The notes beneath the pieces are model-generated. The model did not search any database. It was not told the DNA's origin and worked only from the letters and a program-made list of their open reading frames with translations. From Larus michahellis (Eukaryota > Chordata > Aves > Charadriiformes > Laridae), in the NCBI RefSeq assembly GCF_964199755.1, contig NC_133906.1:17891378-17955377 (forward strand): 64,000 nt of DNA, in the 5' to 3' direction. Position numbers and translations under genes: made by a program. Positions 17,270 to 21,200 of this stretch are shown piece after piece (the stretch's first letter is position 1; each line of letters starts with the position of its first letter).

Positions 17270-17432
17270 GGCAGCGGCTGACGTGCACAAGCTGGGGGCA
17301 TGTAAGAGAACTTAAACCGAGTGCGAGGGGGCTTCGCAGAGATACCTGCTCCTCAAGCTGACGTGCCTTATCCTTAGCAGCCCCTTGGCACGTGTATTTT
17401 AGACCAGTGCTGCGCTGCCCCGTTTGGCTGCG
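17270..17432 (+). repeat. inverted repeat, left arm (SQSTM1 upstream)
   Basis: This stretch matches the reverse complement of 18778-18940. Over the central 145 bp I count roughly 18-19 differences (about 87% identity) and one 1-bp indel. Diagnostic shared blocks include GGGGGCATGTAAGAGAACTT, ACCTGCTCCTCAA and GTATTTTAGA/TTATTTTAGA. The arm contains a CACGTG E-box at 17389-17394 that the other arm lacks. The source sequence is not a repeat family I recognise. Confidence 0.9.
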
Positions 17433-17503
17433 GGACCCCGGCCCGCAGCCCGGACCCCAGCGGAGCCCAGCGCGGGGGCGGAGCCTGGTCCGCAGGGGGC
17501 GGA

Positions 17504-17724
17504 GCCTGGAGCTGGGAGGACACGGTGAGGCTGGCGCGGGGGGGCGTGGCCTGAACTGGGGGCGTGGCCTGGAGCTGGGAGGACACGGTGAGGCTGGCGC
17601 GGGGGGGCGTGGCCTGAACTGGGGGCGTGGCCTGGAGCTGGGAGGACACGGTGAGGCTGGCGCGGGGGGGCGTGGCCTGGAGCTGGGAGGACGCGGTGAG
17701 GCTGGCGCCGGGGGCGTGGCCTGT
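17504..17724 (+). repeat. SQSTM1: 63-bp GC-box minisatellite in SQSTM1 proximal promoter
   Basis: Head-to-tail units begin at 17504, 17567 and 17630 (63-bp period). A fourth, partial copy begins at 17675 after a 45-bp copy missing the AACTGGGGGCGTGGCCT segment. Each full unit carries two GGGCGTGGC boxes (Sp1/KLF type), giving six in total. The array ends about 10 bp before the TATA-like box. Copy number therefore sets the number of GC boxes next to the core promoter. Confidence 0.92.
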
Positions 17725-17732
17725 GGCGGCGC

Positions 17733-17738
17733 TATAAG
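17733..17738 (+). promoter_or_regulatory. SQSTM1: TATA-like box of SQSTM1
   Basis: GCTATAAGG lies about 100 bp upstream of the ATG in otherwise GC-rich sequence. This would place a start near 17760 and a 5' UTR of roughly 80 nt. Position relative to the ATG and the GC-box array supports it, but the start itself is inferred. Confidence 0.55.
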
Positions 17739-17840
17739 GCGGGGGCGCAGGGCCCAGCTGTCGCCCCGCCGCCCGCCCGCCGCAGCTACCGCAGCTCCGC
17801 CCCACCGGTCCCTGCCGGCAATTCCTGCTGCGCCACAGCC

Positions 17841-18267
17841 ATGGCGGCGCTGACGGTGAAAGCCTACCTGCTGGGCAAGGAGGAGGCGACCCGCGAGATC
17901 CGCCGCTTCTCCCTGCCGCCGCCCGCCCGCTACCAGGCCATCCACGACCGCGTCGCCGAGCTCTTCCAGGGGCTGCTGCGGGCCGGGCCGCCGCCCGCCT
18001 TCCGCATGCACTACAAAGGTGAGCGGCGGGGCGGGGGGTGCTCCTCCGGGTCAGGCCCCCGTGGTCCTGGGGGTGGGAAGGCCTCGGGGCTGCCCGGCGG
18101 GTGGGGTGCCCTCGCCGCCCCCTCCGGTGACAGCCGACCGGGCGCCTGACCCTGCGCTTTACCTTCTCTAGATGAAGACGGGGACCTGATCGCGTTTTCC
18201 ACCGACGAGGAGCTGGAGCTGGCGATGCCCTACGTGCAGGACGGTGTCTTTCGCGTTTACATCAAAG
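17841..18267 (+). CDS. SQSTM1: SQSTM1 exons 1-2: PB1 domain
   Basis: Exon 1 (17841-18018, donor GTGAGC, phase 1) and exon 2 (18172-18267, donor GTAACC, phase 1) encode residues 1-91. The basic face (K7, R21, R22) and the acidic OPCA motif ([15 protein letters not shown] at about 60-74) are both present, so head-to-tail PB1 polymerisation should be retained. The linker after RRF is shorter than in human p62 and lacks its Glu/Ala-rich insertion. Confidence 0.95.
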
Positions 18268-21200
18268 GTAACCCCGCACAGTTTCCCGGGGCGGTCGCAG
18301 GCCTCTGAAAACGGGGGAAACGAGCCCCGGCCCTTCCCCGGGTCCTCAGGGGCCTGGTGGAACCTGCAACCTTCGGGGGGAGGTGAAATAAAGGGCTGGG
18401 TGATATGCCAGAACGTGAATCCTTGCTGCCGAGGTGGGGTAAACACATCACGAGTTTCCTCCTAGCCCTGTCATCTTGACTGGGCCAATGTGAGCCAGTG
18501 TTGTCCTGCTGGCTCCCTGGAGACGCTGGATTAGCACCCGTATCTTTAATATTCACAGCAGTGCATTAGAAAGCCTTAATTCTGGCTTATTCCTCAGTGC
18601 GCAGTTGCTCCCTTGTCCGTTCCGCTCATGTAGATATCCACAAAACTTTTATCTGTGGCCTATCTAATGAGTCACTCCAGCGATGTTGTCCCTGCTCTCA
18701 TCTGTTATGCCTCCTGGCATTTCTTCCTAGCTCCCTCTCCAGAAACATTTTGTTCTTGCAGTTCTTAAGAAGGTGGGACCAGAAGCCAAATGGGGCAGTG
18801 CAGCACTAATCTAAAATAAACAAGCCAAGAGGCTGTTAAGGATAAGGCATGCTCAGTTTGAGGAGCAGGTACCTTTGCAAAGCCCCGTTGCACTCGGTTT
18901 AAGTTCTCTTACATGCCCCCGGCTTGTGTTTGGCAGCCAGTGTAAAAATAAACCGACCCAGTAAGTCAATACTGCTCTGACAAGGGCTGTTTGCGCTTCC
19001 TTCTCCTCTGCCCGATGTCCAGCCTTTAAATAGTAACCTTGTTTTGATGCAAAGTTTCCTTTCCTTAATAGAGAAAAAGGAATGCCGGCGGGACCATCGC
19101 TCGCAGTGCAGCCAGGAGCCCCCCCGCGACATGGTGCACCCCAACGTCATCTGCGATGGCTGCGAAGGACCGGTGGTGGGTGCCAGGTTCAAGTGCACTG
19201 TCTGCCCAGACTACGACCTGTGCAGCGCCTGTGAGGGGAAAGGCATCCACAAGGAGCACAACATGGTGATGTTTCAAAGTCCACTGCTAAATCCATTTGA
19301 GGTGAGCACAATCAATGGAGGGGGAACTAATGAATGGGGATATTACTCCAATTTAAGTCACAAGTTCCAGTTACTCAGAATCTGGCTGTGTGAAGAGAGT
19401 CACGTGAATGTTAACCTTTACAGTGGCTTCCCCGAGGACGCTGGCTCCGTAAAATGCGGCATGGTGTTCCACCCTTCCCATGGATGCACTGCTGGGGATA
19501 TCCTGGCCCTGCAGCTCCATGCCAAAACTCCGAACAAGCCCAGGCCGGCACTGCAGCCTCCAGTCCACCCACTGCAGAAGGTAAGAGGAGATGGCGCTGG
19601 TAAACAAGGTGGTGGTGGAGCCAGAGTAGCTGAGGTTCTGCAGCACAGGGTGGAATCTGGGTGGAAAAATAGACACAGGAACTACTCCAGTTTCCTTTCA
19701 GTGCAGAGCGGGATTATTTTAAGGCATGCTTGGGCCCATGCAATAGATGGGGATGCAGAGAGAGTATTGGGAACCAGACAAAGCTGAGCTGTTGGGTCAA
19801 GCATGTCACTACTCCAGTTCTGCCTTTCAGCATGGCTAATGAGCCTTAACAACGCTAATGCCACCGGTTTTCTGTTCCAGAGGTAGCTCAGAGTTATTTT
19901 TTTGTCTCTATACTGCCTTTGTGCAGTGTGTGAGTGACAGCAAATGAGCACCAAGATCTCATGGGGATACACTGGATAGGTGCTTTTTCCCTCTGAGCTC
20001 CTATGTATGCTAACAGAAATTGTTTTTCTAGAAGCTTCTACTAACAGCCAGCCTCAGGACCCCAATGTCACCTTCTTAAAGAATGTTGGTGAGAGTGTTG
20101 CAGCTTTTCTGAGCCCCCTGGGTAAGTGACTTACAGTTTGTTATCCCACTTCCCGAGACTGGCTTAAAGGTCCTTTTAACAGGAGCAGCCGTCAGCTGTT
20201 GTGGCTGATACTGGCACTACCTCCTGCCACTAAGCCTCAGCTTACTCCTGGCACTAACAATTCCTAGGCTTAGAACAGCCACTCGGTACCTTTTCAGAGC
20301 CCTCCTTTGGGAGGAAATGAGGAAAGATTTTATTAACGTGTCACCACTGCAACACACTAATCTTAAGTCAGTGGTGACTCAGGATTTTGCCTGGCTTATG
20401 TAGACACAAATAACTTCATGCATTTAGAGGGTCAGGCTAGGCTTGTTTCAGGGGAAGACAACTATTTGGTGCTTAGCTATTCGTTGCTTAAAGAATGCTT
20501 TGCATCTTAATCTGTACCTGTTATATGGCAAACCATAGGATTACAGAAACCTTACAGTGTTTAGACCGGGATTGATGCACGCTGTTTTAGGACTGTGCTA
20601 TGGAAAAACCTCTGTAAGACTTTGTCCATCTCAAATGCATTTCTAGGTATTGATGTTGATATTGATGTGGAACATGGAGGACAGAGAAGCAAAGTGACTC
20701 CTGCTTCTTCCAATCAAGAGCAGAAGAGTGCTGAGTCAAGCAGCGGTACGGTTAACCAGGACGCTCAGACCAAACAAGACTGGAATAAAACAGATTCTGG
20801 TACAGATGTAAATGTTGTTGCGGAGCAGATACAAGACATGGTGATAGATCCTGTGCCCACACAAATGGAAGATGGCAGCTTCCAGTCACAGGTACAAGAA
20901 CTAAGACATTAATTGCATAATGCTTGCTAAGGCTTTACTAGAAAGGAAGACAAACATTTAGCATGCAGTGGGGGATTGATGCACAGCACCTTTGCTTTAC
21001 TGGTTTACAGCAAAGGTGGTGGGATGAGTTTTGGATGTAACTTTTGTATTAAAGGCAGATAGTAGGAGGATGCATCCTACCTGGAAAGCACTGCAGCACC
21101 TGGACCATTTTTCTTTCCATTTCAGGAACACAGCGAGTCCAGCAGTTCATCAGGGGGTGATGAGGACTGGACCCACTTATCTTCCAAAGAAGTGGATCCT

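Follow-up and report, generated by a model that had tools for sequence, protein, structure and literature searches.

Short duplications in which a segment of DNA is copied to a nearby site have been described in the human genome. In the main text of Pace et al. (2009), 824 of 1,136 duplicons lay within 5 kb of each other and 753 of the 1,136 were less than 3 kb apart; the 824 duplications with a donor within 5 kb had a mean length of 162 bp and a median of 147 bp (PMC2671141). These proximal repair-mediated duplications were attributed to synthesis-dependent strand annealing, and only six were reported for chicken by the same method, which is based on transposable elements (PMC2671141). Another described group is that of the short-range template switches, which in the gold-standard set reported for apes had a median length of 12 bp and a maximum of 128 bp (PMC7954356).

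Here we describe two inverted arms at the SQSTM1 gene of Larus michahellis, found in the window, which is the whole stretch of 64,000 nucleotides that was analyzed. Arm A lies upstream of the promoter, and arm B lies within the gene (Table 1). We conclude, with a probability of about 0.8, that the pair arose by a single old inverted local duplication of about 163 bp of unique sequence and is an ordinary scar of repair or replication.

Table 1. Positions within the window of the two arms, the promoter features, and the first exons of SQSTM1
Feature	Position	Strand	Description
Arm A	17276–17438	+	5' of the SQSTM1 promoter; GC 0.59, 9 CpG; probable donor copy
Run of 31 bases identical in both arms	17294–17324	+	Other copy at 18890–18920, minus strand
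GC-box minisatellite	17495–17723	+	63-base unit, 3 copies in 17495–17687; also a 45-base period over 17495–17723
TATA-like box	17733–17738	+	Motif match only
SQSTM1 exon 1, coding part	17841–18018	+	Spliced frame
SQSTM1 exon 2	18172–18267	+	Spliced frame
Arm B	18775–18938	−	In intron 2, 133 bases 5' of exon 3; GC 0.51, 3 CpG; probable acceptor
SQSTM1 exon 3	19072–19301	+	Encodes the ZZ domain; not within the inverted repeat

When arm A was aligned with the reverse complement of arm B, 139 of the 164 columns were identical (84.8%). The differences consisted of 1 gap and 24 substitutions (16 transitions and 8 transversions), and the K2P distance was 0.167. The alignment contained two ungapped blocks, 17276–17361 with 18853–18938 (87%) and 17364–17438 with 18775–18849 (84%), and of the six inverted pairs of 40 bases or more that were listed across the window these were the longest. 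The local alignment score of the arms was 112, compared to a maximum of 30 for 189 unrelated pairs (200 pairs were drawn from the window, and 11 were excluded for closeness). The initial annotation had proposed an inverted repeat with about 87% identity over 145 bp, and these results demonstrated that the repeat is real; in a DNA search of the genome of the same bird, 17286–17429 matched the other arm with 88% identity (145 bases on the B side). The coordinates first given were nearly right but a few bases off: the outer start is at 17276, not 17270, and the inner edges are at 17438 and 18775, not 17432 and 18778, leaving a spacer of 1336 bases (17439–18774). The block GGGGGCATGTAAGAGAACTT, which had been cited as common to both arms, is part of the 31-base identical run. 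A duplicated assembly error is unlikely, given that the arms differ by 15%.

Homology beyond the edges of the arms was not significant, as the observed flank scores were matched in 21, 72, 26, and 98 of 300 resamplings; the outer flanks nearest the arms were borderline (21/300 and 26/300). A looser gapped alignment of the arms could be extended to 17228/19001. With none of the four flank tests significant and two of them borderline, a duplication longer than 163 bp was rejected.

A sample of 284 kb was assembled from the 64-kb window and 22 further 10-kb stretches of its contig; 4 kb of one stretch (L003) is shared with the window, and about 280 kb of the sample is distinct. Apart from arms A and B, the inverted rows of 60 bp or more in this sample were limited to two pairs of CR1-tail-like repeats, labeled as such by motif, and one self-overlapping palindrome (L015). 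Because the window had been preselected for the arm A/B repeat, the sample gives no estimate of the rate of such repeats. The window also contains a second, shorter inverted pair (51122–51210 and 52206–52294), both members of which are CR1-tail-like and match copies in five other sampled stretches.

The content claimed for the spacer was found there: it contains the GC-box minisatellite, the TATA-like box, and the first two exons of SQSTM1. Splicing of exons 1 through 3 produced an open frame of 168 residues, with the ZZ domain in the frame of exon 3; its best match among solved chains was Sequestosome-1 (E 1.8e-37). The placement of arm A outside the predicted SQSTM1 transcript was likewise supported. 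The 63-base units of the minisatellite, which lies directly 5' of the TATA-like box, match each other at 96%, and their copy number may differ among individuals. Just 3' of exon 3, in the next intron, positions 19399–19407 read GTCACGTGA, nine bases of the CLEAR/TFEB motif (consensus GTCACGTGAC). Downstream of SQSTM1, one of the three minus-strand frames tested matched the RabGAP-TBC domain and presumably belongs to TBC1D9B. A minus-strand start near 10.2 kb resembles, in our estimation, exon 1 of MGAT4B; the corresponding frame had no Pfam match. Long GT-rich arrays (10416–11395; GTGTAC and GTGTGGACGT units) lie between this MGAT4B-like exon and SQSTM1, and a purine array at 26847–27214 is composed of about 12–21 copies of 18-base GAAAAAAAAAAGGAAAAG units.

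The base composition of the two arms is asymmetric. There were 20 differences between G/C and A/T, of which 17 had the G/C in arm A and 3 had the reverse (sign test, P 0.0026). Eight CpGs were present only in arm A, two only in arm B, and one in both; 7 of the 8 A-only CpGs were opposite TpG or CpA in arm B. The asymmetry that the initial annotation described as gains of G/C by the promoter arm is real, but it is doubtful that it arose by gain, in view of the TpG and CpA bases facing the CpGs. A simple model was used to compare gain and loss, with the non-CpG transition level at 8/141 sites and 24 TG/CA sites open to gain. In this model the probability of at least 7 CpG gains in arm A from the 24 sites was at most 3e-4. 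The probability of losing at least 7 of 8 CpGs from arm B was 0.22–0.56 when CpG decay was set at 10–15 times and all of the change was placed on arm B. When the change was split evenly between the arms, CpG loss in arm B fit poorly, with P 0.014 at 10 times and 0.08 at 15 times, and with CpG decay at 5 times or less the P value for the losses in arm B was 0.014 or lower with either split. Under this model, CpG decay in arm B would explain the A-only CpGs better than gain in arm A.

CpG decay is not the sole cause of the asymmetry. The 14 differences outside CpGs also leaned toward arm A (9 with G/C in arm A versus 2 with the reverse), which argues that AT drift in arm B or GC-biased conversion in arm A adds to the CpG decay. 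Because the model favors a CpG-rich ancestor, arm A on the promoter side would probably be the donor and arm B in intron 2 the acceptor, judging from the two copies themselves. The suggestion that promoter sequence had evolved from the duplicated segment is not favored by the CpG pattern, which makes arm A the likelier donor rather than a derivative. The CACGTG at 17389 is present in arm A and in no part of arm B, exactly as had been noted; this E-box may be ancestral and may have been lost from arm B. An excess of G/C on the promoter side can mean decay in the other copy, not gain of motifs.

Because the arms occupy two sites in opposite orientation, they might represent two independent insertions of a mobile element, either dispersed or present in very few copies. 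We consider this quite unlikely. A DNA search of the bird's own genome (1,405,500,149 bases in 616 contigs) with 17270–17432 returned two places from two candidates, which were the two arms, and a search with 18760–18960 at E values up to 10 gave the same result; the first pass of these searches can miss very common words. The 31-base core, with up to 3 mismatches allowed, had one forward and one reverse match in the genome, again the two arms, and the reversed-pattern control had none. These searches, with each arm and the 31-mer over 1.405 Gb, agree with the earlier remark that the arms match no recognized repeat family. In the 284-kb sample, the best third match to an nhmmer profile of both arms reached only E 0.11 (in stretch L014). 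The best real match in the sample was equaled in 8 of 40 shuffles for arm A and in 1 of 40 for arm B, the latter being borderline; the weak matches, in stretches L014, L008, L022, and L004, had scores of 18 and 21 for the real arms A and B and 16 and 16 for their reversed copies. Such weak single matches, particularly that of L014 and the score of 21 for arm B, might be interpreted as remnants of an ancient family; we take them as probable noise, with that of arm B borderline. In the same sample, the CR1-tail-like control gave 9 matches in 6 of the 23 sequences, one being the query and the others 73–86% identical, which demonstrates that diverged repeats are detectable there. No clear target-site duplications were found when the arm edges were allowed to shift by 6 bases: the longest flanking direct repeat was 5 bases at arm A, and there was none of at least 4 bases at arm B; old target-site duplications could have decayed. 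A polyA/T tail was absent directly at either arm edge. The A-rich AAAAATAAA starts at 18944, 5 bases past arm B, which leaves a small probability of retro-insertion. Viral contigs had no match to the 26-base core of the repeat. A dispersed repeat was rejected on the basis of the own-genome searches, the nhmmer profile and shuffles in the 284-kb sample, and the R1 sequence model in the window. Inversion of the spacer between staggered breaks would also leave inverted duplications at both ends, and inversions of this kind, with duplications at their ends, are known from Drosophila. In the present case, however, exons 1 and 2 agree with exon 3 in orientation and frame; short of two successive flips, the spacer therefore keeps the orientation of the remainder of the gene. 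We therefore rejected this origin on gene orientation, and regard it as extremely improbable.

The pair might also be kept by selection, either as a duplicated regulatory element or as RNA-pairing arms for SQSTM1 transcripts from an upstream start, and this we consider unlikely. The 31-base identical run would fit such selection, but when the same mismatches were shuffled, 7.9% of the shuffles gave a run of at least 31 bases. The E-box and the two TGACGT half-sites of arm A (at 17279 and 17359) would also fit, but all of them are absent from arm B. The predicted RNA duplex of the arms has an energy of −276.9 kcal/mol and 148 pairs, and when 17276–18938 is folded at minimum energy 147 of the 163 bases of arm A pair with arm B; strong pairing is nevertheless expected, because any such inverted repeat would pair, and the plus-strand folds of the arms were no better than those of shuffles (z 0.09 and 0.36). 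Pairing of the arms in RNA needs a transcript that starts upstream of 17276. The arms are placed symmetrically on either side of the promoter, and outward transcription would meet almost the same 163 bases in both directions; poly(A)-type motifs are present as a weak AATACA at 17398 (upstream antisense) and a canonical AATAAA at 18815 (intron 2). It is very improbable that SQSTM1 is tuned either by outward transcription through both arms or by upstream-start transcripts in which exons 1 and 2 are enclosed by a duplex of about 148 pairs. If it were, either route could adjust SQSTM1 in this lineage through early termination, editing of the RNA, or skipping of exons. An RNA gene was rejected, because no Rfam family was matched in the window with gathering thresholds applied and the folds were ordinary. 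A duplicated coding exon was rejected because no frame is open in both arms: all six frames of arm B contain a stop, as do five of the six of arm A, where one minus-strand frame is open for 54 codons. The arms were suggested to promote inversion or deletion of the promoter block; they might do so, but copies that differ by 15% and lie 1.3 kb from each other recombine poorly. Nothing tested points to a function of the pair.

The single inverted duplication is favored because there are only two copies, at the sensitivity of the searches, and because the edges lack significant homology beyond them. The length of 163 bp and the interval of 1336 bp match those of proximal repair-mediated duplications, which are defined as at least 50 bp long, with a donor within 5 kb and more than 50 bp between the copies. 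While a break was being repaired or a fork restarted, about 163 bp would have been copied, in inverted form, to a position some 1.3 kb distant. The route would have been either synthesis-dependent strand annealing with template capture or microhomology-mediated break-induced replication, most likely with the upstream, CpG-richer arm A as donor and intron 2 as acceptor. Both copies would then have diverged, and function is not needed to explain the pair. Avian substitution rates are 1.5 to 3.3e-9 per site per year; at these rates the arm divergence would place the duplication, very roughly, at 25–55 My ago if the arms were neutral and unconverted. The pair thus provides a clean and roughly datable case of a short inverted local duplication adjoining the promoter of an autophagy gene. 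If the pair proved to be conserved, or to be transcribed from upstream, it would represent a lineage-specific change in the control of SQSTM1.

Among the matches listed for the SQSTM1 promoter, avian inverted repeats, and the mechanism, no title or abstract opening described the arm A/B repeat. The FXR IR1 of mouse Sqstm1 shares with it the gene and the words "inverted repeat", but is unrelated, being a nuclear-receptor response element with a one-nucleotide spacer located 13.1 kb downstream of the transcription start site (PMC3428273). Like short-range template-switch insertions, the pair includes an inverse-complement copy of nearby sequence; unlike them, with templates reported tens to hundreds of bases away, it involves 163 bp at a distance of about 1.3 kb (PMC7954356). 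The MMBIR model, as published, permits inverted segments through a switch to an inverted template, as the arms here would need; its edge microhomology of 2–5 bp would be obscured by a divergence as large as that of these arms (PMC2621351). The closest likeness is to the proximal repair-mediated duplications, in arm size, in distance, and in having one other copy that is not a dispersed repeat (PMC2671141). Pace et al. (2009) identified their acceptors within transposable elements and examined empty sites in relatives, whereas our comparison is drawn from one genome alone; inverted orientation is not treated in their main text, where the word "inverted" occurs 0 times (PMC2671141). We conclude that the arm A/B pair is probably a new example of a described class of duplication.
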